Shown: positions 35,266 to 62,800 of the stretch, one piece after another | Layout of the letters: each line of letters begins with the position of its first letter | Position numbering within the stretch: position 1 is the first letter of the stretch | Source: Xestospongia bergquistia | Lineage: Eukaryota; Porifera; Demospongiae; Haplosclerida; Petrosiidae | Direction: 5' to 3' | Length of the DNA stretch: 64,000 nucleotides | Assembly (NCBI GenBank): GCA_963965975.1 | Contig: OZ014411.1 | Coordinates: 932,501-996,500, forward strand | The notes under the pieces: model-generated | The model's input: only the letters and a program-made list of their open reading frames with translations | Told to the model about the DNA's origin: nothing | Database searches by the model: none | Position numbers and translations under genes: made by a program

Positions 35266-38200
35266 CTATACATGACATAGACAGAGCAGTACAATAAGAC
35301 AATGTTAAAATTAAAATTACATGTACACTAAAAGTAAATAAGTAACAATACATTCACTTACCAAAGGATTACATTCAGAGAAGACGTATTCGCTATACAC
35401 ATCAGGTCTCTTTAGAAAAGTATGAATATCATCACCAATTTGACGATTGTTAACAATTGGACCTTCCACTTCCTTTAATAATTTTTTCCATTTGGCTTCA
35501 TTTGATTTCTCCTCTAGCCATTTATTGATCACAATCGACAGGTTTATCTCTGTTGAGTTATTGCTTATCTTTAAGCTTTCTAATTCTCCAGTGTTGACTT
35601 CAAGTGAGACTCCAATGAGGTACCATTTGTCTTTAATAGGCATTAGTAAAGCTAAAACATCTTTCATTTTGGGAACTTTAGAAAGAATGGGATCATTACC
35701 TACAAAAGAATGCAATCAGCCTTAAATCAAGCTTTAAAAAATATTGTAGTAATAATGAGAAACATACAAACAAGCCAGTACCTTACATTAATCTTACCTA
35801 ATACATTTTCTATTGGTGTATTAAGATATGATGAATTAGTAGTGTCATTTGATTTTTCTATATTACATGAGAAATGAGAATATTAATAGTAACAATGATT
35901 AATAAATTACATGAAAAAGGAGTACTTGAGCTAGCAATACTTACTTCTGTTTTATCACAACAAATCATAATACGTATAATAAAGCAATACAACATCAAGC
36001 AAACAATGACTTACCTTGGTGTGTCTTTTCTACAAGTGATTTAGAGGCACGTTTAATCTCATCATCAGTTAATGGAGGGTCAGCAAGGTAGGCAAGATCC
36101 TGTACATGATGTAGATACAGCAGTACAATAAGATAATGTAACACTACATGTACATTGTTACATGTACACTAAAAAGTAAATAAGTAATGGTACATTTACT
36201 TACCAAAGGATTACGTCCAGCAAAGACACTCAAATGGCTACAGTGCTCCTTTATAGCGATGTGAGTACATTCAACAGATGATAAAAATGTGTCACAACAG
36301 ACATCTTGAATATGTTGAAGATAATAACCTTGAATTGGTAACTCAGCATTACTTGTATTGAACAGTGCTTTCGTTACCAAAGGAGCAATGTGAAGAAAAG
36401 GATCTTTATTTCCTACAATCTCTTTGACATCACGCACAATACCATCTGTACCCATAATATTGTTTTTAGCAAGAATAGAGACAGCAACATCTTCTATTGA
36501 ATAAAGTGTGCGTTTACAGACTTCAAGAGTATGAGCAGTAGATACCTGATCTGGTGCAATCATATATTCATCACTTGTACATGAACAAAATTGCTCCTTA
36601 AGACTCAGGACTTTCTTAATAACTGAGTTAAAAACTTGGCGACTTTCCTCCATTTCTTTGTTTGATGTAAGTACAGTGACACAACGATTGTGTTCAGAAA
36701 CTTCAGCAATAACCTCAAATTTGTTCTTCCAATATATACCATTAGTCCATACTGTACAACGACGAGCTAACTTTTGTACAGCAGGGTTAGTTTCATTAAT
36801 CATACCAGGTTTTCTTCGAGGACAAAGGCAGTAAATATAGGCAAGGCAAAGTAGAAGGACATGAAGAAATCGTGTCGAAAGGAATTGATTGGGATCAGGA
36901 CACCACAGACACCATCCTAACCCATCCTCTATTTTGATATCAGTGGGAGGTTCAGCACTGACAAGTGCTGGAAAAAACAAGACCTCATCTAATGGCAAGG
37001 GTATTGATGTTGATATGTTAGTTTCAAGATCACCAAGTGTGCTTGATTCAATCATGTGGCAGAACTGAAGACTTTTAAGAAAACCAACTAACATATCAGT
37101 ATTATGATGAGGAAATGCTTCTTTGAGAGCTGATAGAGGTACAATGCCAGTATTACTAGCCATATCTCGATAAACACGCTCAATTGCTGATGGAGCAAAG
37201 AGGACACCATTGATTTCTGAGAGTAGAGCTGCCTTGTTAATAACTATCCAACTTTGATCTACATTATTTCTGAGGAATAAAATAAGACCCTTGTCACTTA
37301 AAGTGGTCAGAAATTCAAGTAACACTGACATTTCAGATGGAAGAGAAGGATCATTACGCTCTTTTAATAAACCACATAACTCTTCTAAACTAATAGCTAC
37401 TCTTTGAAGAAGCTGTAGGAAGGAGTATTGAACGTGGCAATAAAAACTAATTTTGTCGGATCGATCAAGAACAGCTTTACAGCTCTTTGACAAAGTAATT
37501 ATGAACTCTTTGACTCCTTTACCTCCAGGACGGTGGCATTCCATTGGTACAAACCCATGGAATTCCTGTGAATAGGTTGCTTTCTTAGCAACATCACGAA
37601 CCAATTCAGATATTGGATCCAAACTAGTAGTTAGCTCATCTAGACGACTTCCAATGACAATAATTTGTGATCGTTTTGAACTCTTCATTCCTTTGCTGAT
37701 GTTTTCAATGAAGTTAAACCAGTAGTATAACTCCTTTCTCATGGTCTCCTTGTTGTTAATTAGCTTGGAAAGGACCAAAAATACAGCAGGTGAGCTAAGC
37801 ATTAGATTTTCCAGGACAGCAGCATGACTACTGTAATATTCCCTATGACCAGCAAGGTCATAGAGAACGACGTTCCCAATTTCATGACTTGTAAAGGTAT
37901 GTGCATTAATACCAGCTGTTAATGGTTCTACAGTGACACATTCGGATGTATGAAATTTGTGATCAGCTGGTTTCTTAGCTCGTTCCATGATGACAGCAGT
38001 AAGAGAGCTTTTCCCTGAAGTGGTATTGCCACACATAAAGACTTTACCATAGGATTCCACAGGAAAGTCAGCTTGACTTTGCTGAAATGGCTCAAACATT
38101 TTTAAAATATCAAAACGATTCTTGTGACTTTGAGGAACAAGTTCTATAGGTACTTCTTCTCTGCTATTTCTGGACATTGGATCCACTTGCCCAGATGATA

Positions 38201-41200
38201 AGAGAAACTTGATAGCATCTACTGAACCATTAGAACAAGCATCATGAAGTGGTGTGTTTCCACTCTAACAGAGAAAGAATAGCATAAACATTCTACCATA
38301 TTGTTGATTTTACACATAAAATGAGAAAAAGTAAGAAAATGTGAAAATCTTATTACAATTATATGTATTGACTATAAAATGGTTTTTAACATTTAATCAT
38401 ACTCACCACATTCTTAACATCAATCTGAATAGTATGATCCACAATTGCCCTAATAAGGTCAACATTGTTATTGTAGGCTGCACAGTGTAAAGCGGTGTCA
38501 TCATCCTAAAAATACAAAGACATTGTAACAAGTCATTCCGTTATGTAGCAACAATGCTACTACAGTAGATGAATGTATATTATTTTACATATTAATGAGA
38601 TAAAATATGTATTTAATGTAACATAATATGCAGCATGAAGTGTATATGTCAACACAATATGCTGTATATGTTGTATAGACTCTCAATATTTTAATAATTA
38701 AGAGATATATAGAAAGAAGACAAATATGTATAGATTCCATTTGAAGTAATAAGTCTATCACCTATTCTGTTTATTAACAAGGTGCTGGAGGCTAAATAAG
38801 CTAGTCGTCCTACATTGACAAATTAATTGGCTTAGGTATTCTTGTTCCCAAACTACCACACCAAAAGGGAGATGAGTGGTAGTAGACACACATGGTCCAG
38901 GTTATCATAAGTATGTTGTGCTGTAAATTGTTTAGGGGGACTATTTACAACCTGACAGTGCTAGGATCCACAGTAAGTATAATGCAGATGTATCATTATC
39001 TTGATGTTATTTTGTACTGAAGTACCTCAAACTAAGGAAGCCTATGCACTGGATAGAATAATATCCATCTTATTTTGAAGCCACATGGGTAGTTGGCAAT
39101 TACTATATCATTGAGACCAGCATTGAAAGAACAAAGATTTGTGTCAAAGGCTGGCACAACCAACTAAAGGTGTAAAAAAAGATCACTAAAATATATTCGA
39201 AATTGTCACAATTTTAATGAAAAGGCAGGCCTCGATAGAAATGTCTCTTTCACAGCTTTCTGCTGAAGCTGCAGATACATAGATCCAAAAACCCTTTAGA
39301 GATCAAATGATTAACAATTTAAATGAGAGGCTGACATCAATCTCCATTATTTAGAAGAGTATGTATCACTTATCTTCTCATACTAGTTTATAGATAGATT
39401 TAATTAATTTTGGTATATATATATAATTTCCAACAAGTTTTTCTTTAGTAGGCAAAATGATACAAAGTAAAATTAGTAAGCAAATGGTAGTTTGTAAAAT
39501 TAGACTGGGTGAAACAACCCTATATCAAATGTCTTCATTATCACTTGGCATCTAAAACTAGAGATACTATTGTTAGACTTGACAAGAAACAGGGATTGAT
39601 TAACATTCTTGCTACATTTCTTGTCAAAAGAAAGTCAAGGCAAAATAAAAGACTATAATTTGCTGTGGTAGTTTAGGGACAAGACCAATGTACTATATTC
39701 TATATATTCCAGTAGGCCATTTGTTAAGCTAAGGAGAGGCTAACATGTAATATAGACTAACAGTATGTAAACACATGAATTACTAACTATAAGTGGCTTT
39801 GTTAACTAACACGATAACCTATATGAACTCACATTATTCCTAATATCAACAGAACAGCCATTACCAATCAGAAGAAGTCCAATATCTGTATGGTTATTCT
39901 CAGCAGCCACATAGAGTGCAGTCTTTCCATCCTAATAAAAATATGAAATAAAAAGAATAAACAGATGTACATGTACACTGTACTTGTATTTATGTATATG
40001 TATTTAGAAATTTGTCATTGTTTGTTTGTTTGTTAGATCAAATCTTAATAAAAATGTGTACAATATGGTCTTAAAAAATATTTTACCAAATCACTAAACA
40101 TTGTAAGGATATAGCATGTGAGATCTATATTACAGGAACCAATACAATAACATTTTCCTTATGGTTAAGAAAGAAACAAGGAGACTTCTGCATCGTAATT
40201 ATAGAAACAACTACAACTACAGAAAATACTATAACAGTTAAAGATAAGGTTAAGTACAGAAATAAAACAAAAGGTCATATACTTTAAATTTATCATTAAA
40301 ACATATATCTTAATATGTTGCCAAATAACCAGTAGAAATATTCAAAAAGATAAACAGAGAGTGTTTGTTTCACCACAAACAAATCACATCATTATATGAC
40401 CTCTCTACTATGTTGTTATTCATCTTAAATCTGATATGTCGAAACAAAGTAAGAATACAAAGATGCAGAACTAATGGCATATATCAGCTTTATGTATATC
40501 ACACATTACAGAAAGACACAAGAGAGACAGAGGCTAGTTTATGATAGTTTAATAGTTTAGACATAATATTCATAATTTGTATGACTGCCTTTTGTGTATT
40601 ACTACTATTTGTCATATGAAATCTAAGCTATCCAACTGGTTTATGATAACAGTCAAGTAATTATACTAGATGTAATTTTATTAAGATTTAGTGACATACA
40701 TTTGTAAAAGGATCATTGTTAATACAACTAGGTTGAGTTCAATTCAGTAGTCTCTTGAAACACTAAGTTATCATTGCAAAAAGAATTCTTTTAGTCTTCT
40801 TTCTCTGAATTTGAAAACTCTCAACGATTCATTACATTATACATGTGTTTATACACTAAATATTGAGATGCAAAAGATAGTAGGGGGGAGGGGGTTAGAG
40901 TCCCAATAGCTCCTATGGTTCCTACATGTACAGTGGATTGTTAAATGTCATAGATAATATACAAAACATGTACTGGATATACAATTATAATAATAGTTTA
41001 TCAAAGCAATAAAAACATTTGTTGTGGCATAAATCCATAATTAACATATAATAAATCCATCATAAAGTCAAGTATAGTAGATGTAATCTCACTAAAACTG
41101 TAGTCACTTATCAAAAACATTTTGCTCTGTTTAAAAACAAGACAATTAATGTATATTATCAAATGATTGAAACAATTAGTAACTAACGTAACTATCAACA

Positions 41201-42366
41201 CACACTACAACTAATATTGTAATAAGTGTTATACCGTCATTTGATTTGTCTATCTAATATAAAATATACTATGGATAATTTGGAATGTCTACATTGAAAA
41301 AATGCCTGCATCATTCATTTTAATACCAAGTTAAAAAGTGACATGTAAATAATATCAAGGTCTTTATAGTTACTAATGGATTACAATAATTATCTTAATT
41401 AAAGTTCAATACAGTTGTACATGAGACAACTTACTATGTTTTCCAAATCAGTACTAGCATTAGCCTTTAGTAATACTTGAACAATCTCAATGTAGCCTTC
41501 CTTTGATGCAACATGGAGAGGAGTCTCATTTTCCTATATATATATATACAAAGATAAATGTCATGTGAAAAACATCAAATTAAATGTGAGTGCAAATATA
41601 TATATTACATCTAAACAGTAACAATATACACATGTAGAATGATAGAAAATATTATTAAAAAAATTGAATTAACAATAATGTAATACATGTGTATGTATGT
41701 ATTAAGCCAAAGAAAAACTGGTATACATGTAAATGTATGTGTATAGGTTGTAGTAAATTCATGTAGAGTAAAAGTATACATATCACCAAAAAGAAACTGG
41801 CTCCCATGCATCAAATATGTCTGTGATTAGCAACAACTTTCAATATTATTAAAACATTAAAATGACAAGTCTTCTTTTGCTATAAATAACTCTGAAAGGA
41901 TATAAAGTGACAAAAACAAAAGTAACATTTTGTATACTTTTTTCAGGTAAGAGTTAATATGCTATAACCTTTAATTTGTCTATTAAATAACATATTGCTA
42001 TACAATCAATGCAATAGTACATTAAAAATAATTAGTTAATTGAATACTATCTTATGAACAAAAATAGGATTCTATTTACCTTGCATTCAACATCTATAAC
42101 CATATATTGATTAAATCAACCAATTGATTTTTACAGTGATATAACTACATTGAATAAACACAGGCCTTGGTTTAATACCAGGTCAAAATACTTTGAGTTG
42201 AATATAAATCAAGGTATTTTAACCAATGAAATACATTAATTATATTACGTAAGACAACTTACATTGTTTGCTATATCAGTACTAGCATTAGCCTTTAGCA
42301 ACAATTCCACAATTTCATTGTAGTCTCCCTTTGAGGCAACATAGAGAGGAGTCTTGCCATCCTATA

Positions 42367-42444
<78 letters not shown>

Positions 42445-43974
42445 TCATGTAATAAACATCAAATTAAATAGTAAGTATAATCATATATTTTATGTTACAT
42501 CTAACAGTAACAATATACATGTGTTGTATGATAGAAAATATCATAAAACAAATTAAATTAACAATAACATAATACATGTGTGTGTTTTTAATATCAAAGG
42601 AAACTGGTATACATGTAAAAGTACATGTACAGGTTGTAGTAAATAAGTGTATAGTAAAGCTACATAGTTATTGTCACATTTAAATGAATGCATTACATGT
42701 AGATATGTACTGTATTTCAATGTATGGTGTTTAACTCAGGAGAATTGGGCCAATTTTAATATGCCTCAAAATATAATGTAATTTAAATTTAAGATATATA
42801 ACTATAGCTAATTAAGAAAAAAGCTTATCAGAAAAATACATCACTCAAAAAAAACTTGTCTCTTGCATGTGCTGATTAGTAAACAATTACTAAACACTTT
42901 CACTATTCTAAAAACATATAAAAAGTCAAGTTTTCATTAGCTATAAGTGACTCTGAAAAGCTATAAAGTGATAAAAACAACAGTGCATTTTGCATACTTT
43001 TTGTCTGATAAGAGTTAATATGTTGTAACCATTAATTGGTGTATTTAATAACATATTATTATACAATCAATGCCATAGTACATTAGAAATATTTAGTTAA
43101 TTGAATAGTATCTTATGAACAAAAACAGGATTCTATTTACCTTGCATTCAACATCTATAACCATATATTGATTAAATCAACCAATTGATTTTTACAGTTA
43201 TATAACTATATTAAATAAAAACCTGCCTTGTTTTAATGCCAGGTCAAAATGGTCAAAGTTGAATATAACTCAAAGTATTTTAACCAATGAAATACATTAA
43301 TTATAATACATGAGACAACTTACATTGTTTGCTATATCAGTACTAGCATTAGCCTTTAGCAACAATTCCACAATTTCATTGTAGCCTCCCTTTGAGGCAA
43401 CATAGAGAGGAGTCTTGCCATCCTATATATATATATTGATAGAAATAAATAATATTATCACAAGAGAAACATGAAATACATTAATTATATTACATGAGAC
43501 AATTTACATTGTTTGCTATATCAGTACCAGCATTAGCCTTTAGCAACAATTCCACAATTTCTCTGTAGCCTCCATTTGAAGCAACACAGAGAGGAGTTTC
43601 ACCATCCTATATATATATATATATTGATAGAAATAAATAATATTATCACAAGAGAAACCAAAATACATTAATTATATTACATAAGACAACTTACATTGTT
43701 TGCTATATCAGTAGTAGCATTAGCCTTTAGCAACAATTCTACATTTTCAGTGCAGCCTTTTTTTGAGGCAACACAGAGAGGAGTCTTACCATGCTATAAA
43801 TATATTGAGAGAAATAAAGAATATTATCACAAGAGAAACATGAAATACATTAATTATATTACGTAAGACAACTTACATTGTTTGCTATATCAGTACTAGC
43901 ATTAGCCTTTAGCAACAATTCCACAATTTCATTGTAGTCTCCCTTTGAGGCAACATAGAGAGGAGTCTTGCCAT

Positions 43975-44027
<53 letters not shown>

Positions 44028-47000
44028 TTCATGTAAGAAACATCAAATTAAATAGTAAGTATAATCATATATTTTATGTTACATCTAACAGTAACAACAT
44101 ATACATGTAGTATGATTGAAAATATCATAAAACAAAATTAAATTAACAATAACATAACACATGTGTGTGTTTTTAATATCAAAGGAAACAGGTATATATA
44201 TAAATGTACATGTACAGGTTGTAGTAAATAAGTGTATAGTAAAGCTACATAGTTATTGTCACATTTAAATGAATGCATTACATGTAGATATGTACTGTAT
44301 TTCAATGTATGGTGTTTAACTCAAGAAAGTTGGGGACCAATTTTAATATGCCTCAAAGCATAATGTAATATAAATTTAAGATATATAACTATAGCTGTAA
44401 CCATTAATTGGTTGATTTAACAATATATTGTTATGCAATCAATCTCATTGCATATTACGATTATTTAGTTAATTAAATAGTATGTTTGGAATAGAAACAG
44501 TAGTGTATTAACCTGACATTCAACACATATGACTACATATTGATTAAATCAACTAATTAATTCTTACTTGAGTTAACTTACGCTGTTTGCTATATCTGTA
44601 TTGGCATTAGCAGTTAGTAATACTTGCACAATATCACTGCACTCATTATATGATGCAGCATAGAGAGGAGTCTGATTTTCCTATATATAGATACCGAGAT
44701 GAATACCATGTGAAAAACATCAAATTAAATAGTGAGTATAATCTTGTATATCTAAACAACATATACATGTAGTATGATAGAAAACATTATAAGACAAAAC
44801 TAAATTAGCAATAACATAATACGTGTGTGTGTTTTAATATTCAAGGAATCTGGTATGCATATAAATGTACATGTACAGGTTGTAGTAAATATGTTTATAG
44901 TAAAGCTAAATAGTTATTGTCACATTTAAATGAATGTATCACATGTACATGTGAACTGTATTTCAATGTATGGTGTTTAACTCAGGATAGTTGGGCCAAT
45001 TTTAATATGCCTCAAAGCATAATGTAATTGAAATTTAAGATATATAACTATAGCTAATTAAGAAAAAAGCTTATCAGAGAAACACATCACTCATAAACAA
45101 CTTGTCTCTTGTATCAAATGCATGTGTTGATTAGTAAACACTTTAACTATTATAAAAACATTTAAAATGACTAGTTTTCATTTGCTATAGTGACTCTGAA
45201 AAGCTTTAAAGTGACAAAAACAACAATAACATTTTCTATACTTTTTATCAGATAAGAGTTAATATGATATAACCATTAATAGGTTGGTTTAACAACATAT
45301 TGTTATACAATCAATGTTATTGCACATAAAGACTATTAAGTTAATTAAATAGTATGTTAGGAATAAAACAGTAGTGTACTAACCTGACATTCAACATGTA
45401 TGACTACATACTAATTAAATCAACTAATTAATTCATATTTGAGGTAACTTACACTGTTTGCTATATCTGTATTGGCATTATAAATTAGTAAAATTTGTAC
45501 GATTTCACTGTAGCCATTATATGATGCAACATAGAGAGGAGTGTTACTTTCCTATATAGATACAGAGATGAATACCATGATAAAATGCCAGGTTATTTAA
45601 TTCATCACAATTGCATCAAGTTTTGACATGACTTAAAGCATTGATTTAAGCAAATCTTACTCTAACAGAGCAGCTACAAGTATTTCAGGTGAAGTATTGA
45701 ATCAAGTTTCAAAGGTGGGTACCACAAAATGGTTATACTCCTTTAATGTTAAACTTCAAGGTTATTCATTTTATTAGAATAGAGAGTAATGGAACTAAAC
45801 AGGCTTCAATCCATTAGTAATTACTGTTACAACTGATGAACACCACAAAATGTTATTAAATTTTGTGATTATTAATTAATGTTGTGGTCAAATGCAACAG
45901 TAAAATAGAATGTATTAGAATAGTCTCATGACTTGCACAATACATTTGTTTGATTCTCCAGCATTCCTATAGAAACCACTGTTTTGGCAACAGGTACTTG
46001 AGCAATCCACAATATGTTTTACATATGCTTAGATATTCTGTTATCAAGAAACGTGTCATTGCTAAATTATGTACATTACTACAATCAAAAAAAGCTTCTC
46101 TCTGCTCTGAATGTGTAGACTCTACATTCCATACCACCAATAAAAGCTTCTATTTGGCATTATCTGCTCTGCTGTCATATTCCAGCTTCGCAAGTACTTC
46201 TTGAATACTTGGTGTTTTCTATTCTCCATGTTGATACACATGGTTTCATGTGTTTACATTAACATGTAATATTACAAACAAGTTATATAATGTTACATAG
46301 TTAATGAAATTCCTTTTCGACAGCTGTATTATGCAAGTAGACTAGACCCTTCCCATATAAGTAAATCATCTTGCCTAGTGAGACTAGTATTAGAATTGAT
46401 AAGTGCTATAATATAATATTATTATAATTATTCAGGAATATGAATACTATGGCTAGCAGGAAGTTGTGTTGAATATTCAAAACTTACATCTGCTCAGCCA
46501 CCAACTTAACACATTCAGTTGCCAGAGACAAAATATTTATAACAATTGCTCTCTTTAGCTACTGTTAGTCTGCAGTTGTTTTGCTGCAACTAGCAATTAA
46601 GGCTTTAAAGTTTGGAAAAGTTTAAAAATCCAAAAGTAATCATTCATAAGTAATCACAAAAAGACAAATGTATGATTTATAACTAAGACAGTGCTAGTCA
46701 TTCTCTCGCTTTGTAGAACTTTTTCTTCAATACATTTCAACATTAGGTTTGCTAATTGTCTTGATTAGTGCACAATATATATTGTTCTTTGCTACTATAT
46801 AAGCATATATTGTATAAAGTCAACATCTATAGCTATAGTATATTCTTCATGCATTATGTAGCAGTATTTGTTTGCATAAGAGAATGACATCAAATCTTGT
46901 CTAATTGCATTTTGAATTTACTATAATTCCTCAAGTACAATAAAAAATGTCTGTGTTGATGAAATATTTGAGAGCCAAAAATATTCCAAAAAATAAACTC

Positions 47001-47826
47001 CAAACTGAAAACAATGTGACAACTGGATATGGGTTAAGCTTGAAGTTCCAGTCAAAATGCAGGTGTCATACATAGGCCTGTATTGTTACCTTTCAATGCT
47101 GATTAAAATATTAAAACTCAAGAAGATAGTTCATTTAAGAAAAGTAAAGCTTATCAAAGACAAGCCATACTAGAGTTCATGCTTCGAATGCATCTGTGAC
47201 TAGTAAACACGTAGACTATTTCAAAAAGGTTTAAAAAGACAAATCACAAGTTTGCTAACTAGTAATTTGGAAAGGGTAAAAGGCCTACTTCAGTTCTAAT
47301 TAATTAGAAAAAGTAAACTTAACTACAAAGCAAAAGCTAGTCAAATATTAGAGCATGTAAGAATGAATATTGACCAGAGGGCTACTAATAGTGAAGAGGT
47401 GACTTCATTAGAAGTTATTGGGTAACACATTTGTGGCATAGAACTATATTGCATTTAATTAACTTCCACTCATATAGATAAAAAGATTGAAAATACCCTA
47501 AACGTTTCTGCTTTAAAAGATTACCATAGTTATTTCCTCAACTAAAAGCATTCTTTTAATAAACACCTACCATGAATACATGTTGAGAGTAAGCATCATG
47601 TTTGCACAAATAAACAACTGATCTAAATAAATGCATGATATGGCCTGGCCTGGAAACGCTATCATTTCCCAACATACATTAAAATTTACTTTTCAATTGT
47701 AAGTGTTAGTGACGTCTCAGTTAACTGCTGAGAAGTTTCAAGTTAAGGAATAACTTCTTTGAATAAACACCCAGACATAAATGTTGTGAATGAATAAACG
47801 CTGGTGAATTTAATGGAAGAAATACA

Positions 47827-47873
<47 letters not shown>

Positions 47874-50800
47874 AACTCAGAGAATTGATAAGTTGAAGAA
47901 GTTATGGTGCTTGGACAAAAAGGTTTATCACTTAGCTAAAGAAAGGCTAGCTTTTTAGACTAAAAATTTGTAACAAATCAGCTAATATAGTAGGTGGCTT
48001 TGTTAAGCAGTACTACAACCTATATTAACTCACTTTATCCTTAATGTCAATAGAACAGCCACTCTCAATGAGATGAAGTGCAATATCTGGATGGTCATTC
48101 TCAGCAGCAACAAAGAATGCTGTCTTTCCATCCTATTGTAACATAATTATAACATTTACAAAGAATAAAGAGATGTATTAATGTACATGCAATCAGAAAT
48201 TGGTAACTCTTAATCATTAAAATTAATTACTCACAACAAAATGTGTACAACATGAACTACTATAATAAGTGGCCTTTTTAACCAGTACTATAATCTATAT
48301 TAACTCACCTTATTCTTAATATTAACAGAACAGCCATTCTCAATCAGAAGAAGTGCAATATCTGTATGGTTATTCTCAATAGCCAAATGAAGTGCAGTCT
48401 CTCCATGCTAATATAACATATACGACAGGTAGAGAATAGACAGATGAATTTATGTATATGTAATTAAATATTTGATATTCTTTGTTTTGACAAGATTATA
48501 ACAAGAACGCATACAATATGGTCATAGACTATACTTTACTATGATTGAACTACTAAATATTGAATTGATACATTTAATATAGTTGTTAAGACATAATATA
48601 TTGATGAATATTGGTAGATGGTCTACTATGTCATAGTTAAAGAAATAACTACAATTACAGAAGAAATAAAGATGAAAGATCATTCACTTAGTATTTATCA
48701 CTGAAATGTACATATACATATTGTCAAAAAACTAAGAGAAATGTTCAAAATGGCAAACAGATGACTATTGCTTAGCAAAAAAACATACATTTGCATTATT
48801 GCATCAACCTCTCCAACTACATTGAATCTGACTAGAGAAATGCTATGTATATTTACATGAGGCAAAGATGTTTAAAAACACATTAACTTGATTCATCTTC
48901 GATAATTTAGGCTAATCTTTCAGACATTGGTAACATATACAGACAGATTTAAAGGCATCAATAAGTTGGAATAGCAATTAATGTTGGAACACTAGCTGTA
49001 ATAAATAATAGAAGAGCATGTAGTAGCAGTAGCAGTAGTAGTTGAAGTCGTGGTAGAAATAGTAATAAAATATAATAGAAATAACAGTTGTAGGTATAGT
49101 AAGAGCAATACTACTTCTTTTTTAAAAAAAAACATTTGTAATCATCTTGTTTGTCATCATCCACAAAAGCAATCAAATAGTCACTATGTATGTGCTTAAT
49201 CACCTACAGCAACACTTCTGGATCACTAGATCTGAAAACTATGCCATTTGGAACTACTATTTCATGAAAACCAAAGTGTATGCAGTTGGAATAAGCAAAA
49301 TTACCTGTTCGTACAAAAAAAGAGATCCTTCTGAGTTGTAATTAAATTGGGTAGGGCTCTGATGAAATATTAAAACTTGAAATATTTCTTATTTCATTAC
49401 TAATAATCCACTCTTAAAATTACAATACAAAAATATAATTTGTTAAATTGACATTGAGTATACCTCATTAGCAATGTTAATATTGGCTTGTTTAGTGAGT
49501 AATTCTCTCACACCTTCCAAATCACCTTCTTTTGCAGATTTGAGTAGTAGAGTGTCCTATAGAAGAGATCACAGTACACGATTTATGTCCATATAACATA
49601 ACATAGTACTGATACAATACAATTCACTGAACATTATATTACATTATACATTATATGTAACTGAATAGTGAATTATGATGTATACCTAAACAGTAGTGAT
49701 GCTAATAGAGGATTTAATATTACTGTGATTGACATATGTTGATTTTATTAGCTTTGTCTCCAGTCTATAAAGTTAGTTTATTTACATTTTTTCCTGTATA
49801 AATATCACATGTTACTTACAACTTTCACTTCCTCCAAATTACTGTCTCTGGATAATGTTAATAGCTTGACAATATCATCTTCATTTTCCCAATATGCACC
49901 ATGTAGTGGAATTCTACCATACTAGACATACAGTTATAATTAAGATGCAAATTTAATATTAAAAATATGAAGCAAGTATAGAAGTAATAATAGCTCATAG
50001 TATAAAAAGTTATTTGAAAGCTGTTTTGATATACCATGATTGCAACCATAGCTAAACAATACACAGAGATCATTCTTTGTCATTTTTCTAAGTGGCCGAA
50101 GTAACTCTCAATGTATAAACATCAATAATATTTAGTACATGTACATGTCAGTATTTACATAACTTAACATGAATACATGATATGTCACTGACCTTGTCTG
50201 GAACATTCACTTGAACACCATGGTCTAGAAATACTTGTACTACTTCATCGTGACCTTTGTAACATGCTATGAACATCGGAATCATGCCATCCTAAACAAT
50301 ATAAAATATTATTTTCACATACTGCCACAAACTATATAGAAAAATTATTACTAAGTGACACTCTGTTAGGTGAACTTTTACTAAAATTTATCAACATGAT
50401 AAATGTAATAAAGAGTTACAGTGTTTATAAATATAAAATCATACACTACTATAGTTACTCCATAGTTTACAAGTACATAATACTTAGATTGAATTCAGTC
50501 CCCAGTATCCACCATTTATAATAAATGAATAGTCTAATTTTCAATAACAGAATTAATGTAAAAGTAAATTTTAAAAATTAGAGAAAAGTCAACAATGTGG
50601 ATATGACAATGCTAAAGAGGAAGAGACAAAATTTTCAAGAATAATTATGCATATAAAATCCATGCAAAAGTCCCTAAATAAGTAGTTAACCAATATATGT
50701 CCTATACTGATGTATGAGAGCTTAAAAAATAAAAATATCATCATTCTCAGTTAAGAACAAAATAGATTGAAGGGTCTAGCTATTTACAGAGAGAATTTTG

Positions 50801-53800
50801 CATGACTTTCTGTGTACATATTCATCCTTAGCTGTTTTATTTCAATTGTTTTTGATATAATAATTAACACAGATCAAACTAAACAGCAATATTTATCTGA
50901 AAGATGGACGCATTGTGAAGTGGAGAATACTACAAATGTGGACGTTCTCACAGCAATAACTTTTATTTCAGTTTTCTAGTTTTGCATAAACATAGAGTAT
51001 AAAATCGTCTAAGCGTCTAAAGTATAAAAATAAGTTGAGACACTCCACATACATGTATGTACATGAGACAATAGGTTTTTTAAAAACACATTAAATTGAA
51101 TCATCTTTAACATTTTTGGCCGATTTTCAGAGATAGGTGACATATATAACTGTCAGTATAGTATATTAATGAACTAATATTTAGAACAAACAATATATAT
51201 AGAGAGATGTTATAACAGAAACTGTATTAATAATAGTCCATAGTAGGTGCATTAAAATAATATACATGAAGCTGACTTTTAAATTGATTTACAGAGTTTG
51301 AATATTCGATAAGAGATGGAAGCAAATTCCACAACTTAATTGTGGTAGGCAAGAAGGAGTTATACAATGCATTTGTGTGGCATACCAGCAACTTTAAATT
51401 GTGAGGATGATTGAAGTAAGATATTGAAGATTTAGGAGTAAAACATTTGTGACAGATAATTATGTAGAGGAGGATTATTTTTTGAGGTGGTACATATGTA
51501 CAGGAAAGGGTTATGATTTAAAAATGGTCAACAAGTGTAGAATAGTTATAATATAGATCATCTCTTAGCACATACTTTAGTGAAAAGAATTGGACTTTCT
51601 ATTGGAAATCTCCCTTTAGTGAACTGAGGGTCCCAGATAGATGAGAAGTAACTTAGAAATGACAGAACTTGCAATTTGTAGAGTTTATTGGATCTTTGAA
51701 AAGGTGGAACCCTCAAGTAAAACTTATTGAAATCTGCAATTTAAGTTGCTATTTGGCCAAGGTGGAAAGGGTATTTAGAAGTGGTTAATGAGTAATGGAG
51801 TTAAAAGCTTTGATGAGATCAAATAAAGCACTGCATATGCACTTCAGACCAAGGAAAGGGTGCCATGACTTGGTAGTGGATATTAGAGCTGTTTCTGTTA
51901 AGAAAGCTAACCTAAATCCACGTTGACTTGACAGTCAGAAAAAAATTTATATTTGAAGAGCAAACATTGCATAATCAGTTAAACATGTGAAGTCCAAAAA
52001 CTTTACTTATAAAAGAGAGAGAAGTGATATTGGACATCAATCAGTTGGGTAAGATGTTGAAGGTCTTTTAGGGATATGTATCATCACTTGAGAGAATGTC
52101 CAGTCATCAAAGAATACAGTAGCCAAAATTGACAGGTTGAAGAAAAGTGACAAGGGACAGACTAATGTAGTTAACACTTCCTTTTAGCATCTTAGCGATA
52201 TATCTTCAAGACCAGATGCAGTGTCAGTCAGCAATTGGGTATTGACAGTCAGAAAGAAATTTATATTTGAAGAGCAAACATTGCATAATCAGTTAAACAT
52301 GTGAAGTCCAAAAACTTTACTTATGAGAGAGAGAGAAGTGATATTGGACATCAATCAGTTGGGTAAGATGTTGAAGGTCTTGTAAATGCTAATTCATTGC
52401 TCTTATTTAATGGCATTTTGTGGACATTAAGAGAGAGACATGATTCTTGTTGCAGAATACATGACTTTGACATTCAGAAAATGTAAACAGGTTGTTACTA
52501 GTAAGAGGTAAGGTTAGTGGTTTCTTATTTAGCTTTTTAACAATGACTGAAATCATTTGGAGAAAGAAAAGATAGAGAAGTTTTGAAAACTTTAGTCTTT
52601 TGTTGATATGGAAGAGTCTTGTTGCAGTAGATGTAATATCAAGGCATTATATGAGAAGAACCTGCCTTTTTCCACTTTCATATAAACGGTTTCTTTTCCT
52701 TACACATTTAATGATAGGTTCATGTGCCCATGGTGGAGAAGTAGATAAGAGATCAGAGACAATTAATGTAAAAGGGGAACAATAGTGAGAGAAGTGGGTA
52801 GGTTTATGAATAATTTGATGAAGAGCAAGAAATTTTGTGAAATAAAGAAGTTTAAGATGAGGATTTGTTAAAATCAAGAAGAAATTGTGACAATTATTTA
52901 AATATATGTAAGTGAAAATCCAGCTAGAAAGTCCAAGTCCATGATTCTATTAGGACGACTATAAGAATTAGAAAGTGTGAACTGATACATTTTAAGCATG
53001 ACTGATAGAAGAATGAGTTCTAGATTTGCAAGCAAGCCAAGGTATGAAAGAGACAATAAAGGTGGTTTTAACATAGGTAGCTACACCACCACCATGACAT
53101 TCACAATCATGTTGAAAGAAGAGATAACTGTGAAGAGATATCTCAGAGCCAGAAATATTAGGGGATAACCAAGTTTCCACAAGATAGATAATGTCAGGAG
53201 AAGACACAGATTAAAAGACGGTCATCTAAGTTAGAGATTAAGCCTCTGGCATTGAAAGGTACATTTATTGTTTTATTGTTAGAGGATGGTGGGGATGTGG
53301 TAGAAGTTCATGAAGAAGATTGATAATGTGAGATATTTCCTGATAGGGGAAGAGATCTGAGAACGTGGGAATCATCTAAAAAGATGAAGGATGGACAGAA
53401 GGATAGCTGAGAAATAGTGACAAGATGAAAGGGAGGGAAGTAATGGAAGTTTCATTGGAAGAGGTGGAATCATTGAAGAGATAGAGGATGTACTGGAAGA
53501 TAATTGGGAAATGGAGGGTGACAGGATAGATGTGGAAGGAGAGATAACGAAGTAGGAAGTAATGGAAGTTTCATTGCAGGAGATGGTGATAATTATGCTT
53601 CATTAGATAAGATGGTAATAATGGTGGTTCCATTGGAGAAGATGGCAATAATGGCGTTTTCATTGGAGGAGGTGGTAATATTGATAGAGGGTTTTATTGG
53701 AAGTAATCGAGAATTTAGTAGTGCAGGTTTTATTGGACATTAAAATAAAAAAAGGTTTTCATGGGTGTAGAGAAGATGGCTTGCTTTTGACAGAAGGTAG

Positions 53801-56800
53801 TTGAATACTTATGTTTGAACTAGGTTTGGTCCTATGGTTTTGAGATTTCTAGTAAAAATAGCAATGTTGATTGTTCTACTTCATGGAGTGGAGGAGATAT
53901 TGGGCTGCAAAGAGCTTTCATTGCTAAGTATATCTGCAGTGAATGTAGAGGTAATCTTGTTTGAGTTGGCATTAGAAATATTGGAAACAAAATAAGGAAG
54001 AGAGGCATTTAGGATAGAGTTAGCATTTGGAGTAATAGAAAGAATGCTTCACCATGAAGAGTTGTCATTGCTAGGTAGATTGGTAGTAGAAACTAAGGTA
54101 ATATGACAATCACTATTGTGGCTAGATGAACCTAAAAAAGACTGGGCACGTTGATTTTCAAAGAATCAAGCACTGAAAGACTTAAAGGAATTTTCAAGAT
54201 TTATAATATGAGCTTTTAAGAGAGAAATTCAGACCTTAGATTAGATATCATAGAAAGAAATGTTTTGACACAGTATGGGCAAACAAAAGGAAATTCATTG
54301 GCAACTTGAGCAGCAATGTTGACACATTCACTGAACATGAACAGATTTCACAGTGGAGCACTAGACCATGTTCTTCTTGCAAAATACAAATACATTTCAT
54401 AACATTACCTTAAGGGTCAGGGTTAATTTCTATATCACCACAAAGTAGCAAAGAATGCAGAGAAAGAGTTGTGTTGCAAGAGAGGATAGGGGAAATGAGT
54501 GACATTGTTATAAATTTCTCATAAATTGAGAGTGACTAGATGGACAACCATAAAGTCAGTCCTTGGTCATGATACATAGACTTTATTAACAAATATATAG
54601 ATATAGACATATTCTTATATGGACACAGAACTACTAACACACACATATATAGGAGGATGTATCAATTGTAGAGTCACTGGAAATATTCTGCTGACTTAAC
54701 TCAAGGTGGCATTGACATTCGTGTTCCGCATTTATTATAATAACAGAGTAATAATATCATTCATATTATTCATTATTCATCATTATTATTATTCATTGTT
54801 CAAATAATTTAGACAAAAATATTTCATTGATAGAGGACAACAAATTTTTTTAAAAAACACCAATTCCCAGAATTATGATACATGTTATAACATGCTGATT
54901 GTCAATGCCTTATAACCATATATACTATCATCAATTGCGACACTCCTCATTTTAAAGTATCATGTTATTTCATGATGAAAACAATTAGAGCATAATAGGT
55001 CATTTTTGTCTTTATGACAAATTAAACTTCCATATTTTAATAACATGAGTGAACAATAATATATTACAGTTCTGACATTAACATAGAACTACACATGCAT
55101 ATTGTTTTATATAAAAATTAACCACTCTCCATGTTGTAGTAACTACATATATAATATTATGTAATATATTATGGAAATCACAACTTCTACAGTGAGAAGT
55201 ATTGTTACAGCATTGGTTTTTATAAGAAAATAAATCATAAGTTTTTAAATTGCATTTTCAACTTACAAAATTTCCTCAATTAAGACTACTTCAAATAATT
55301 GCCTTCCATAATTAAACACAGGAAGCAAACATAAGTTAATAAACCCTTGAATAAATGTCTTTGCTGAGTGTTGTTTGAAGCTCCTATCAGGATGTATATA
55401 TGGTAGGCCTGACTTCTGAGGCATTAAAAATTAAAACTCAAGGAGATCACCTATCATAGTTACAGCAGCTTAAAAATCAAGTTTATTAGAGAGGCTTTGT
55501 TTGAAGAAATAGATTCAATACTTTAAAAATGGATCTGTGATTACTAAACACTTTTACTATTTAAGGAAGATTAAAAATGATAAGATGTAATTTGCTACAA
55601 AGTGACTTCAAAAGGCCAAAAGTAATGAAAAATAACATTTAATGTTTTGTATTTGTTGTCAGGTAAGCATCAATAAAACAACACCTACACTGAATAAACC
55701 CTTTCCTTGTTTTAATAACAGATCAAAAAGCGTAATAAACAAGGAGTTTAAAGAAAGAAATACAATTTTGAACTCATCAAAGCATCAATACAACTGTATA
55801 TAATAAAAACTTACTTTGTTTGCCAGATCAGTATTAGCATTAGCCTTTAGTAACATTTGCACAATTTCACTGTAGCCCTTCTTTGATGCAACATAGAGAG
55901 GAGTCTTGTCTTTCTATATACATACAAAGATGAACGTAATGTGAGAAACATCAAATTAAATAATGAGTATAATCATGTATATAGTACATCTAAACAGTAA
56001 CAACATACACATGTAGTATGATAGATAATATTTTAAAAAAACAAAACTAAATTAATAATAACATAGAGCTTTAACAAAGCTTTTTGTCATACTTATTGCC
56101 ACATTTAGATGGATGTATTACATGGTGTTTAACTCAGGAGAGTTGTGTCAATTTTTGATATGCCTTAAAGCATAATGTATTCGAAACTGAAAATATATCA
56201 CTAAAGCAAATTAAGAAAAAAAGATTCCTTGTCAGATAAGAGTTAATATGCTATATCTATTAATTACTTAATTTAATAACATATTGTTACACAATTAATC
56301 TCATAGTACATTAGGAATATTAGTTGATAAAATAGTATGTTATTGTATTTACCTTACATTCAACATCTATAATCAAATATTGATTAAATCAACCAGTGAT
56401 ATAACTACATTGAATAAACACCTGTCTTGTTTTAATGCAAGGTCAAAATGGTCTGATTTAAATAAAAATTAAGGTGTTTTAATCAATGAAATATATTAAT
56501 TATATTACATGAGACAACTTACACTGTTTGCTATATCAGTACTAGCATTAGCCTTTAGCAACAATTCCACAATTTTATTGTAGTCTCCCTTTGAGGCAAC
56601 ATAGAGAGGAGTCTTACCATCCTATATATATATATAGAGAGAGAACTAAATACTATGATAGAAACATGAAATACAATAATCACATTACATGAAACAATTT
56701 ACATTGTTTGCTATATCATGAGAGAAACATAAAATACATTAATTATATTACATGAGACAACTTACATTGTTTGCTATATCAGTACTAGCATTAGCCTTTA

Positions 56801-59800
56801 GCAACAATTCCACAATTTCATTGTATCCTCTCTTTGAGGCAACATATAGAGGGGTCTTGCCATCCTATATATAGATAGAAAGAAATAAAATGAGATAAAT
56901 ATGAAATACATTAATTATATTACATAAGACAACATACATTGTTTGCTATATCAGTACTAGCATTAGCCTTTAGCAACAATTCCACGATCTCACTGTAGCC
57001 TCTCTTTGAGCCAACATAGAGAGGAGTCTTGTCTTTCTATATACATACAAAGGTAAATGTTATGTGAGAAACATCAAATTAAATAGTGAGTGCAATCACG
57101 TATATGTTACATCTAAACAGTGACAACATACACATGTAGTATGTTTAAAAATATTTAATTAACAATAACAAAATACATATGTGTGTGTTTCATATTGAAT
57201 AAAAAATGATGAGCACAAAAATATACATGTACACATTGTAGTGAAAATATGTATAATAAAAGTACATGTATTTGTCACATTTAAGTAGATAATCCTCAAA
57301 ACATGTACTACATGTAAATGTCTATACTATGATAAAATGTCAAACTATTTAACTCAGGACAGTTGTATTAAGTTTTGACATGTCCCAAAGCTTAATGTAA
57401 TGAGAACAAATGACCTTAAGTAAGTCTTTCTTTGATGGAGTAGCTCCAACTACTTCAGGTTAACCAAGGGATCAATTTTCAAGGCTAACATTAATCAGTG
57501 TTACTCAATAAACAGACAGTGATGTTACAGACCACACCTAGTCATGGCATTTCTTTTACCCGGCCATATATGAATAAATTGCAATGCAAGCCTTGGCTCC
57601 CTTATTTTAAAAGCTGTTTATTTCCAAAAATATTTTTTTAATAATCAGATATGTTAAACCCTACTACAAAAGAAGACTAATCATTGGATAACTGTCTTTT
57701 ACATAGCAAAAGCATAGAAACATTGTCTAATATAAGTACTTGCTTTGTACATGTTCTGCAGACAAGCACCATGTTAACTTTGACCTTAGAAATCACTATA
57801 TCATCATATTAATACACATATCCTTTCTTCTAATAATAGTTTATTATAGGTAATAAACAGATCTTGTGATTAATAATCCATAACTATGATGGGGACATAG
57901 TACCACATCATAACAAGTAATTGTGTTATTGCATGCTAAAATGAGGAAACTATAGACAGAGAGTCTTAGTTTTGTTTTGAATAAGAAACACACATTATAT
58001 AATGAATTCAAGCCGTTATAACATTACATTGGAAACAAAACCTTTTGAATGTCTCTGCCTAAATAAATTGATCTTCCAATTTCAAATTTACAAGTTATAG
58101 GCCTTTCAGTTAGGGTAATCAGGTCTAAATTTTGCTATGCTTGCCCATCTTTAGACTTACTACCTCATTCATAAAATGTTATGTGGGTCTTATCATTATG
58201 AGATCTGAAAGATCAATACTGGCTGCTATGAATTATTAATTCTGAGAATTATTTATATAAGATATTACCTACTTTCTTATTTTTCTCTCTGAAGAAATTA
58301 ATTAAATGATATACATTGTCATATCATAAACTTACGTTATTAACAATATCGACATTAACTCCAGCTTTCGTTAGAAGATCAACAGTGTTATAATCACCTC
58401 TAGAACATGCTATGTGTAATGCTGTGTCACCATTCTGCATACAACAAAGATACATAATAAATTATAACACAATTGTTATATAAAGAATATCTGAACTTTG
58501 ATGCATACTGGTGCTTTAAATAGATATTTTAAGGTTAAATACCTTGCTACTTTTGTGTATGATTATGCATGCATGTGTGTGTGTGTATAGAACAACAGTA
58601 TCAGTGAATGTCTTGGAATTCAACAAAATTTAATTTAAAATAGTACATGTACTAGTAACACAACATGTATATCATCTATAGGTAGGTAGATAGAATCACT
58701 ACAACTTGTCACAGTGTGTTGTACTCTCGTATAGTATTATTATGAGAGTGGCTCTAATATTATGAAGTCAACCAAACTTTAAAATAAAGTATGCATGTAC
58801 AATTTGACCAAGGTTGCTGGGACTAAAATGAATAATTATTATTATGCCAGTGGTTTAGCTCCACCCATCTATTTACAATTAATGTTATCAAATATTAGGA
58901 AGAGTTTGTCAACTTAATAGATAAATGGAAAAATCCTATAGCTAATATGACTGGCACATATCAGTTTACATGCCTGCAAAAACAATAAAATATCATTTCA
59001 TATACTTCTATCAAAGGTTATAATTTTTTGTGGTTAAAATACATAACTTGCTGTATCTAATAAAATTGTTTAATTCTCAATATTAATTTTTGTCAATTTG
59101 TTTCTAAGCACTTTGTAAAGAAAGTGTAAAAACGTCTTTAATACCCACATACTAATAATATTCAGTACATGTACATGTCAATATTTACATAACTTAGCAA
59201 AAACACCTGATGTGTCACTGACCTTGTCTGGAACATCATGAGCACCATGGTCTTGTAATAGTTGTACTACATTATCATGACCAAATAAACGTGCTATGTC
59301 CAATGGAGTGTCACCATACTAAACAACATAAAATAATACTGTCATAAACTAGCACAAACTAAATGGCAAAGAGAACATTGATCCTCTGTTATAGGCTATG
59401 TCATGTGTTTTTTTTACTAAACTAATCACGTACTATAATCTATTTAAACTACTCACTGATAACTATGACATTCTTTTATAGTCTTCCGTAGAAGACTAGT
59501 ATTTATAATTACAATAAACACAACAATGGGTGTGGTTTATTGTCATCAACTTGTAACCATACTAAACAACATAAAATATGGTGTATTGTCTACATACACC
59601 CTAACTATGCATACACAGAAGTTGCAAGGCTATTTAAATTAGTTATCTCTAAAATCCACTCCATATTTTATACGAATGTAATTTTTCAGGATTTACAGTA
59701 AATTATAGATAAATTAGCAAAAATTAAACCTCATCAGCAATGTTAACATTGGCGTGCTTGATGATTAATCCTCTTACACCTTCCAAATCACCCTTTTTTG

Positions 59801-62800
59801 AAAAATTGAGAAGAAGTATGTCCTATAGAAAAGATCAAAGTACACATAACATAACGTAATATTGATAAAATATAATTCACTGAAAATTATATTACATCAT
59901 ACATTATATCTAACTGATTATGGTGATCTATACCTAAACAATAGTGTTATCATTACTAACAGACGATTTAATATTACTATGATTGCTCTATATTAATATT
60001 TTTAGCTTTGTATCCTATCTAGTTTAATCAACATTTATTTATGATTGGACATAACAATTTACTTACAACTTTCACTGCCTCCAAATTACTGGCTCCTAAT
60101 TGTGTTAATAGCTTGACAATGTCATCTTTACTTCTAGAGTAGGCAGCATGCAGGGGTGTTCTGCCATACTAAGTAATAACAAAACCAACGACATATTACA
60201 AAATATCATGTGAAACTATTCAATTGTAACATATTATTATTGTCTTGTCATAATTATATTGTGCTGTTTAATAATAAATCTCAAATATATGTAAGTATTC
60301 AAATTTTTATGCCAAGTTGTTATCTGTTTATATATGATATTTAATAATCTGACAAGATTGCTAAATTCTAATTATTTAATTTGTGTGCATTTTATAAACA
60401 AAAAGTACATTCATCCTTTAATACCAACATAATGACTAAAAGCTGTGTCCATATATAATACCTTTATAGCAATTATGAAAAGGGATTTAAAAGCTTTATC
60501 AATACAGCAACCATAGCTGAACAATGAAAATAAACATAATATTAGATTTGTCCATTTCCTAATTGATCAAAGAAACTTCTACTGTATAAACATCAATAAA
60601 TTCAATACATGTACATGTCAATATTTATATAACTTAACATGAATACACAATATGTCACTGACCTTGTCTGGAACATTCATTTGAACACCATGATCTAGTA
60701 ATACTTGTACTACTTTATCATGACCATAGTAACATGCTATGTACAATGGAGTCAAGCCATCCTAAACAACATTAAATGTTACTGTCAAATACTAACACAA
60801 ACTATATACAAAAATATTACTAAGCAATCATAGAGAACATACACCCTCTGTTAGAGATATGTTATCATAGATTGTCTTCCTTTAAATAAATTATATCCAA
60901 CTGTGGATAATACTGTACCACACCTCTTTTTTGAAAAGCTAAAAGGTGTGACAAGAAGAGTTAACTTTTCTATTTTTAGCCATGTAAGTGTTAATAAAAA
61001 TGTCTCTGATGAAAAAATGTCTACAAGCCTCATTTTAACACCAGGCAAAACATGCCTTAATTACATGTATAAAAACACCAAGGTGTTTACAGTAATTAAT
61101 GAAGTATAATAATTATCTTAATAAAGTAATCCGTATCAGTATAATTGTACATAAGAATACTTACTTTCCTTGCTATATCAGTCCTAGCATTTGCCTTTAG
61201 TAACACTTGCACAATTTCACTGTAGCCTTTCATTGATGCAATATAGAGAGGGCTTTCATCTTCCTACAGAGGTAGATGTCATGTGAGGAACATTAAGTAA
61301 AATAGTGAGTACAATCATGTATATATTACATCGAAACAGTAACAACATACACATGTAGTAAGATAGAAAATATTATAAAACAAAATTAAATTAAAAATGA
61401 CATAATACATGTGTGTGTTTAATATAAAGGAAAACTGGTATATATACTACATTCTACATGATGCATTAGTAGTAAAAGTATTGGTTATAAACTAAAGTAC
61501 GTCTATATGTACTTGTCTTAAATATCATGTATATGTACTATGTGGAATTACACTTGAAATTAACTTTGATCTTGTAACAATAATGACTGTGGTCATTATA
61601 ATCATAAACTCATGACATACAGTCAAGGATGAACCACTACTTATCTGTTATAGGTATGTCTAAAGTTCATTGGATCAAAGGCTTACTCATAATGAACAAT
61701 CATCTGCCTAATTTGCTTACCTTGCTTGTCGGCTAAGGCGAAGTTAGCTCATTAGTTTTTATGTATGTAAAAATTTGTGACCAAGTCTGACAAGAGTGGT
61801 CTTATCTCACTCAAAAATTTGAAATAAATGCTTATGCATAAATGGTTACTATACAGCTATCTTAAACAGAAAGTATATATAATGCCATATGAAGGAAGAA
61901 TAAACATTATACTTCTTGCATACTAAGATTCATGAGCTGCCGTAAAAGATCCCTGCATAGCAACTGTTTACACACAAGGATTTTTCAAAATGTTTACATT
62001 ATATAAATTCTTTTGGAAATTTAAACTATTACAGTAAGTGGATTTGCTAAACAGTAATATAACCTATATTAACTTACGTCATTCTTAATATCCACAGAAG
62101 AGCCATTCTCAATCAAAAGACGTAAAATATCTGTATGGTTATTCTCAGCAGCCAAATACAGTGCAGTCTTTCCATACTAATATAATATATGACATTAAAA
62201 AGAATAAACAGATTTACATGTACAAATTAGAAATTTGAATAGACTAATATGTCATTTATATGTGCTAGTATATACTTTATTAATTAAAGATAAAAAAAAT
62301 TGAATGAATCCATTCTATATGGTGGATAAGATATATATTTACAGAATTCCACACAAATACATTGTTTTTAAAAGCTACTAATATAAATAAATTAAAAAGA
62401 GTTACTATTGTGTCACAGATAAAGAAATAACAATAAGTATAGACAATACTATGAGAGAGCAAAGAAATAAATACCACGTCAGTTACTTAATAATTATAAA
62501 TGAAATGTACAAAAGAATAAGTAGAAATATATACTGTCTAATCACAGGATATATCTCTACATTGTTACATTAACTTCTTCAACTAAGTTGTTAATTATCT
62601 CAATCTGATATATCCAAAGAAAGTAATCAAATAAAAATCCAGAACTACTCATGTTATCATTAAGTTTATGTATATCACACATTAAAGGAAATACACATGA
62701 GAGGTAGATATTATTGGATGATAATTGAGTAGTTAAAACATAAATTAATGTTTAATTCTAACAAAGCATTTGGCTTACTAAATATGATGTGTTTGGAATC

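Follow-up and report, generated by a model that had tools for sequence, protein, structure and literature searches.

What kind of gene carries a long array of ankyrin exons that look interchangeable, and does the array behave as a source of variation? The question is raised by a 64,000-nucleotide (nt) stretch of the genome of the sponge Xestospongia bergquistia (contig OZ014411.1, positions 932,501 to 996,500; hereafter the window), for which the original prediction, made from the letters alone, placed an array of exchangeable ankyrin exons at positions 41435-62176. We called ankyrin exons with a profile built from the array's own 33-residue repeats combined with splice borders, which were predicted from the DNA. 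This led to the identification of 24 ankyrin exons on the minus strand of 41435-62176 (19 of 99 nt, two of 102 nt, two of 93 nt, and one of 96 nt), all of which have AG/GT borders and phase 0 at both ends. The predicted organization of one repeat per phase-0 exon, nearly always of 99 nt, was thus recovered. The minus strand of the 104-kb contig contains 22 ankyrin matches at 30 bits or more, and ten copies of it shuffled in two-base blocks contained none at 15 bits or more.

The 5' end of the array lies at the high coordinates, and the array extends beyond 41435-62176 on both sides (i.e., to 67388 in L009 on the upstream side, beyond the end of the window, and to 38407 on the downstream side), for a total of 31 ankyrin exons (Table 1). 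The 26 exons counted originally are the right number (24 plus 2), but two of them (39931-39833 and 38505-38407) lie outside that interval. The two recurring orders that had been described, C-B-A-C'-F-D4 and C-B-A-E-E-D8-E, match exactly those that we designate B-A-a-B'-F-D4 and B-A-a-C-C-D8-C. Phase 0 was read in all 31 exons before the Roc exon described below, the 5' side of the first exon (N0) having no upstream exon for comparison. The block of eight type-D exons (41435-45551) contains a tandem unit of 184 bp, and the D exons beginning at 43975 and 42361 have the same nucleotide sequence.

The gene continues well past what had been predicted, not only upstream of the window end but also downstream, into Roc and death-domain exons. 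A large exon contains the last ankyrin repeat, a Roc GTPase domain above the Pfam cut-off, and a long conserved stretch at the position of a COR domain. The GxxxxGKS and DxxG motifs are conserved in the alignment of Roc exons. The switch domain is Roc, and NACHT is absent from the Pfam results for this exon. The predicted protein therefore has the Roc domain expected of the Roco family, followed by a conserved stretch that Pfam does not recognize as COR. A PDB sequence search with the Roc exon gave 54 rows, located at the ankyrin end; in a second search, the best 60 of 123 rows aligned only to residues 1-100. A single-sequence AlphaFold model of the exon alone was unusable (predicted local distance difference test score, 36).

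Farther downstream, a frame encoding a death domain (PF00531; E=5e-8), the C-terminal domain typical of the DAPK group, ends in the likely stop codon of the gene. Short exons, read by eye, separate the Roc exon from a death-domain-like exon. To judge by eye, the tail (34190-36099) contains two copies of an apparent three-exon module, made up of the short exons and a death exon, and thus seems to be a duplicated module as well; at least one intron there appears to be in phase 1, unlike those of the array. No kinase domain was noticed; on the 5' side, the features examined were ankyrin exons and short frames in common with the paralogues P2, P8, and P9, and no search was aimed at kinases. As predicted from the DNA, the window gene is probably a single minus-strand gene for an ANK(about 32)-Roc-(COR position)-Death protein, which would be a member of a lineage-expanded animal Roco family.

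Table 1. Predicted exons of the window gene, from 5' to 3'
Feature	Position	Strand	Basis
Ankyrin exon N0	67293-67388, upstream of window (L009)	minus	profile + splice borders
Ankyrin exon N	66096-66194, upstream of window (L009)	minus	profile + splice borders
Ankyrin exon type B	64732-64830, upstream of window (L009)	minus	profile + splice borders
Ankyrin exon type A	64350-64454, upstream of window (L009)	minus	profile + splice borders
Ankyrin exon type a	63988-64080, spans window end; 3' end is 63988-64000	minus	profile + splice borders
Ankyrin exon type C, 99 nt, phase 0	62078-62176	minus	profile + splice borders
Ankyrin exon type D, 99 nt	61165-61263	minus	profile + splice borders
Ankyrin exon type B, 99 nt	60663-60761	minus	profile + splice borders
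Ankyrin exon type A, 102 nt	60067-60168	minus	profile + splice borders
Ankyrin exon type a, 93 nt, weak donor gtttaa	59730-59822	minus	profile + splice borders
Ankyrin exon type B', 96 nt	59223-59318	minus	profile + splice borders
Ankyrin exon type F, 99 nt	58336-58434	minus	profile + splice borders
Four type-D exons	55815-57036: 57036-56938, 56864-56766, 56621-56523, 55913-55815	minus	
Ankyrin exon type B, 99 nt	50193-50291	minus	profile + splice borders
Ankyrin exon type A, 102 nt	49820-49921	minus	profile + splice borders
Ankyrin exon type a, 93 nt	49464-49556	minus	profile + splice borders
Two type-C exons	48034-48407: 48407-48309, 48132-48034	minus	profile + splice borders
Eight type-D exons, first four	41435-45551: 45551-45453, 44680-44582, 43975-43877, 43793-43695	minus	
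Eight type-D exons, last four	41435-45551: 43606-43508, 43422-43324, 42361-42263, 41533-41435	minus	
Ankyrin exon type C, 99 nt	39833-39931	minus	profile + splice borders
Ankyrin exon type t, 99 nt; conserved last array exon	38407-38505	minus	profile + splice borders
Large exon: last ankyrin repeat, Roc GTPase, long conserved stretch at COR position	36204-38264	minus	Pfam; 3' border by eye
Death-domain-like exon, named by eye	35362-35699	minus	borders by eye; no Pfam match
Death-domain frame (PF00531); its stop codon is the likely gene end	34190-34507	minus	Pfam

The 146-Mb genome contains at least 63 Roc exons of the same kind, including that of the window, and 45 of these are on one contig (C1). 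The 25 closest to the window's exon are 71-88% identical to it, 24 of the 26 closest lack an internal stop, and all 11 members scanned have a Pfam Roc match. Among the matches listed, at least 16 of the 63 Roc exons are followed within 9 kb by a death domain on their own strand; the control on the other strand and side gave 0, and randomly placed positions gave 0.6 on average. Ankyrin-Roc-Death is therefore the architecture of the family and not a chance neighborhood. The lists of death-domain, B, D, start-marker, and end-marker matches each comprised the best 150 candidates, and the counts derived from them are lower bounds; 108 of the 150 death-domain matches (those on contigs with Roc exons) were used, and an earlier hand-picked subset gave the same result. 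No relatives of the Roc exon were confirmed in bacterial or archaeal genomes or in viral contigs.

Several other loci with related domains were observed. An array on the minus strand of C1 (639118 to 606743) has both start and end markers but none of the 63 Roc exons found, and it is perhaps a gene that has lost its tail or one whose tail lies outside the scored candidates. Clusters of death-domain matches occur on C6 (8.38-8.64 Mb), C11, and C12; there are at least 150 such matches genome-wide, many of them distant from any Roc exon found. Ankyrin reading frames that stay open over great lengths (as many as 2,968 codons among those listed) are numerous on contigs C3 and C14 and form a family distinct from the exon-per-repeat one.

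To describe how the arrays are composed, we compared seven of them, namely, those of the window gene and of its paralogues P1, P2, P6, P8, P9, and P13 (P1 and P13 in part). After removal of two relics and of matches that scored below 9 bits or had poor splice scores, the census comprised 153 exons, of which 134 are 99 nt long; the lengths 103 (two exons) and 79 (one exon) are errors of the boundary finder at changed donors. The census threshold also dropped N0 and one type-A exon of the window gene, both of which are kept in the count of 31. At the chosen cut, the 134 exons of 99 nt, from five regions, fell into six sequence types, in addition to the 102-nt A and the 93-nt a exons. Donor sequence tracks exon type; GTCAGT, for example, is the donor of 44 of the 48 type-B exons. 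Certain orders recur throughout the seven arrays: A is preceded by B (8/8) and followed by a (8/8), a is followed by C (7/8), and F is preceded by B (once a decayed B) and trailed by D-D (5/5). Of 5,000 within-gene shuffles, none matched the values for BA, Aa, aC, FDD, or BAaC, and 3 matched that for BF. Because the arrays are related (three are tandem copies, and some contain duplicate blocks), the order counts are not independent and the shuffle result is not a strict probability. In these order strings, decayed exons are counted under their type, and a 105-nt exon of P9 and P6, missed by the DNA profiles, is absent.

The start exon N and the end exon t are conserved between arrays, and the middle is variable. 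Array length ranges from 13 ankyrin exons before the Roc exon in P9 (14 with the start exon N0) to at least 71 in P1. P13 shows a near-strict alternation of B and D, with 51 exons in 30 kb. In P1, the start and end markers are 139 kb apart, with at least 71 B or D exons between them (counted with 132 of 150 D matches and 140 of 150 B matches) and none of the 63 Roc exons found inside the interval on the same strand. This stretch is likely to be one gene, although not with certainty, since a start marker that had diverged may have escaped detection.

The origin of these differences can be followed within and between loci. Self-comparison of the window gene revealed copied units that include introns (91% identity over 587 bp and 89% over 562 bp), and longer ones are present in P2 (94% over 5.4 kb) and P13 (97% over 3.8 kb). 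For exon pairs from the same locus, flank identity climbs from 0.75 to 0.95 as exon identity climbs (lenient alignment, with a baseline of about 0.75). P9, P8, and P6 represent three tandem gene copies, in which the longest aligned blocks, introns included, are 92-96% identical and shorter ones 80-97% (blocks of at least 250 bp and >80% identity). P8 and P6 have the order C-t-C-(decayed C)-C-t where P9 has C-(truncated t)-C-C-t, and P8 has B-B-D-D-D-B where P6 and P9 have the 105-nt exon and B-D-D-B-B. Frame-broken or truncated exons persist in these arrays, and all three Roc frames are open. The predicted exons of these copies thus present exon birth and death in mid-process. Since the copies differ by gained, lost, and decayed exons, germline turnover exon by exon is shown between genes, and the original proposal that exons can be gained or lost without breaking the frame is supported.

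At the level of predicted exons, these comparisons show (i) one repeat per phase-0 exon, with a conserved start, end, and Roc tail around an array whose length and order are specific to each gene; (ii) tandem duplication and deletion of units of one to several exons, introns included; and (iii) retention of decayed exons within arrays of genes with an open Roc frame. The mutational engine would be unequal crossing-over or replication slippage between similar intron-exon units, and phase-0 borders would allow nearly any change in the array to keep the frame. By analogy with NLRs and DAPK1, the ankyrin solenoid may act as the sensor, Roc as the GTP switch, and the death domains as the output, roles that would make the family an NLR-type intracellular repertoire (defence or self/non-self) with diversity arising chiefly in the germline, to which any exon skipping would add. 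In its fullest form, this proposal is of a combinatorial ankyrin-Roc death-domain receptor repertoire for defence or allorecognition, with arrays differing between individuals and perhaps, by splicing, between cells, and with repeat-per-exon recognition by ROCO proteins reached independently of brown algae. We put it forward tentatively and consider it, taken whole, rather unlikely.

Selection was examined for both parts of the gene. In the Roc exon (11 of the 12 Roc loci fetched; L018, with an in-frame stop, was left out), the mean ratio of nonsynonymous to synonymous substitution rates (dN/dS) among the 11 paralogues is 0.15 for Roc, 0.27 for the part behind it, and 0.24 for the ankyrin repeat. 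Parsimony counts on exon trees gave 0.64 for type D (47 distinct exons), 0.68 for B (37), and 0.78 for C (14). The ankyrin exons are therefore looser than the Roc tail, which fits either a recognition surface or relaxed constraint. We then separated seven positions per repeat that, going by the design of designed ankyrin repeat proteins (DARPins), presumably face the target. At these positions, dN/dS is 0.92 for D (1.20 on short branches, not significant) and 1.47 for C (not significant), compared with 0.55 and 0.60 at the remaining positions; the contrast is significant for both (Fisher tests, D p=0.005 and C p=0.002). The same contrast was not significant for B (0.46 versus 0.71, p=0.59) or for the window gene's own D exons (p=0.06). 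Exons evolving in concert breach the independence that such tests assume. The variable recognition surface of the original prediction is thus plausible but unproven: the presumed binding positions are near neutral and looser than the rest in D and C, where purifying selection does not extend to all surface positions, but not in B.

Several observations weigh against our interpretation. Pfam recognized no COR domain at E 0.1 in the 11 members scanned, the death-domain-like exon had no Pfam match at the same threshold, and the exon junctions, including that from the array to Roc, are predicted from DNA alone. At least one stop is present in 19 of the 37 more distant Roc exons, and part of the family may therefore be pseudogenes. 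Exon pairs from different loci at 80-95% identity have flanks of 0.77-0.83, little above the baseline, so that the sharing of exon types between loci is either old or due to exon-sized exchange. At the presumed binding positions, type B is significantly below 1 (p=0.018), indicating constraint, and no position class in D, C, or B is significantly above 1; diversifying selection at these positions is not demonstrated, and positive selection of the kind reported in brown algae was not found. Finally, a role in defence or recognition is suggested by analogy alone.

These selection results also bear on near-neutral turnover, in which frame-neutral exons are cheap to gain and lose, the solenoid is a loose scaffold, and the variation has no function. 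Such turnover would account for the tolerance of decayed exons, for ankyrin-exon values of 0.64-0.78, and for the lack of any class above 1. It accords less well with the constraint on the 26 other positions of D (0.55, p=4e-5), with the coincidence of the looser positions in D and C with those taken from DARPin design, and with order rules that hold across seven arrays. We regard it as a real possibility, if short of a probable one.

The phase-0 exons might instead serve mainly combinatorial skipping within one individual, for which Dscam provides a model of combinatorial splicing. By the phase reading above, the 31 exons that precede the Roc exon are all frame-neutral, but frame neutrality by itself is no proof of skipping, and the agreement between donor and exon type is what simple copying predicts. 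Comparable repeat exons are spliced in brown-algal ROCO genes (PMC11378527) and in NLRP3 (PMC6642158). Splicing as the main source of diversity is, in our view, unlikely. In the P13 array (L039), two type-B exons (C4:5399810 and C4:5402358) carry GA where the donor GT is expected, with the frame otherwise intact; these exons may be skipped.

The near-identical D copies had been taken to imply recent amplification or gene conversion. Recent amplification is upheld, introns having been copied along with the exons. Gene conversion, rather than duplication, would explain why exons 43975 and 42361 are identical with 60-nt flanks of 92-94%, why exon 57036 is 91-92% identical to 43975, 43422, and 42361 with an upstream flank of 0.67-0.77 (near or below baseline), and why pairs from different loci at 85-95% have flanks of 0.77-0.82. 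However, flank identity tracks exon identity within loci, where conversion is therefore unnecessary; constraint on exons could account for their excess likeness, and only 12 of 6,870 different-locus pairs reach 90% identity. Conversion as the main cause is accordingly doubtful. An assembly artefact, in which collapsed or falsely duplicated haplotypes mimic array variability, is highly improbable: there is one assembly and highly similar tandem blocks are difficult to assemble, but the 7 arrays that share the architecture lie on two contigs and have diverged by degrees (66-97% identity among the blocks listed) rather than being near-identical copies only, and point changes as well as decayed exons distinguish the tandem genes. 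Our preferred account of the arrays remains one in which intron-containing units are duplicated and deleted in tandem.

Other features of the window were recorded. In the largest array intron (50292-55814), two minus-strand frames (51227-51517 and 52992-53210) resemble, by eye, pieces of a retrotransposon of the long interspersed nuclear element type; an Rfam scan of the window gave 0 matches. A decayed type-C exon on the minus strand (9419-9520) lies about 25-29 kb past the 3' end of the window gene, outside any array found, and its flank aligns with the C regions of that gene (71% over 1,034 bp and 69% over 804 bp). Two ankyrin exons on the plus strand (27364-27676) belong to another gene; the second was called at 103 nt, and its borders therefore differ in phase.

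The closest parallel to these arrays is exon shuffling in the leucine-rich repeat (LRR)-ROCO genes of brown algae (Teng et al. 2024, PMC11378527, which cites Zambounis et al. 2012 on this subject). There, each LRR is encoded by one 72-bp phase-2 exon, positively selected sites and splice variants are described, and a role as immune receptors is proposed (PMC11378527). Both families place Roc behind an N-terminal array with one repeat per exon of constant length and phase, are large, and undergo exon turnover; gain, loss, and reordering between paralogues, as in the algae, were observed here. The differences are that the algal proteins are described as LRR-ROC-COR only, from mostly dispersed genes (PMC11378527), whereas the present repeats are ankyrin, mostly of 99 nt and in phase 0, the family has death domains, many of its Roc exons are clustered, and selection is only relaxed. 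The ankyrin-Roc-Death version is probably convergent, having been reached independently.

DAPK1, too, carries ankyrin repeats. With DAPK1 and the group-3 Roco proteins, the predicted protein shares Roc and a C-terminal death domain without LRRs; DAPK1, one of four human Roco genes, differs in having a kinase before RocCOR (PMC6337361). Large expansions of NLR and death-fold genes are known from sponge genomes (PMC12909245, PMC8195603). NLRs, as described for NLRP3 (PMC6642158) and Dysidea avara (PMC12909245), resemble the present family in their nucleotide switch, frame-preserving solenoid exons, death-fold output, and large sponge families, but they use NACHT and LRRs instead of Roc and ankyrin, and an NLRP3 exon encodes two LRRs in 171 bp (PMC6642158). 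The Death/TRADD-N proteins of Amphimedon are another large sponge expansion, with a death fold, C-terminal ankyrin repeats, and an argued immune role; they have TRADD-N instead of Roc, and the excerpts of PMC8195603 do not mention one repeat per exon. In some sea-anemone proteins Roc is joined to TIR, and in others to kinase, death, and TIR domains, a further case of Roc combined with immune signaling domains in a non-bilaterian; their partners are LRRs or kinases rather than an ankyrin array, and the excerpts of PMC5094078 report no exon array. In the open-licence literature, we found no published ankyrin exon arrays in Roc-Death genes.

The at least 63 Roc exons of this one subfamily, some of which contain stops, exceed the 9-47 ROCO genes per brown-algal species, numbers stated to be above those of the other organisms reported (PMC11378527). 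The arrays keep a record of repeat gain and loss by single exons, in which intermediate states can still be seen. Should they vary between individuals, they would provide a directly testable system for the generation of a repertoire without adaptive immunity.

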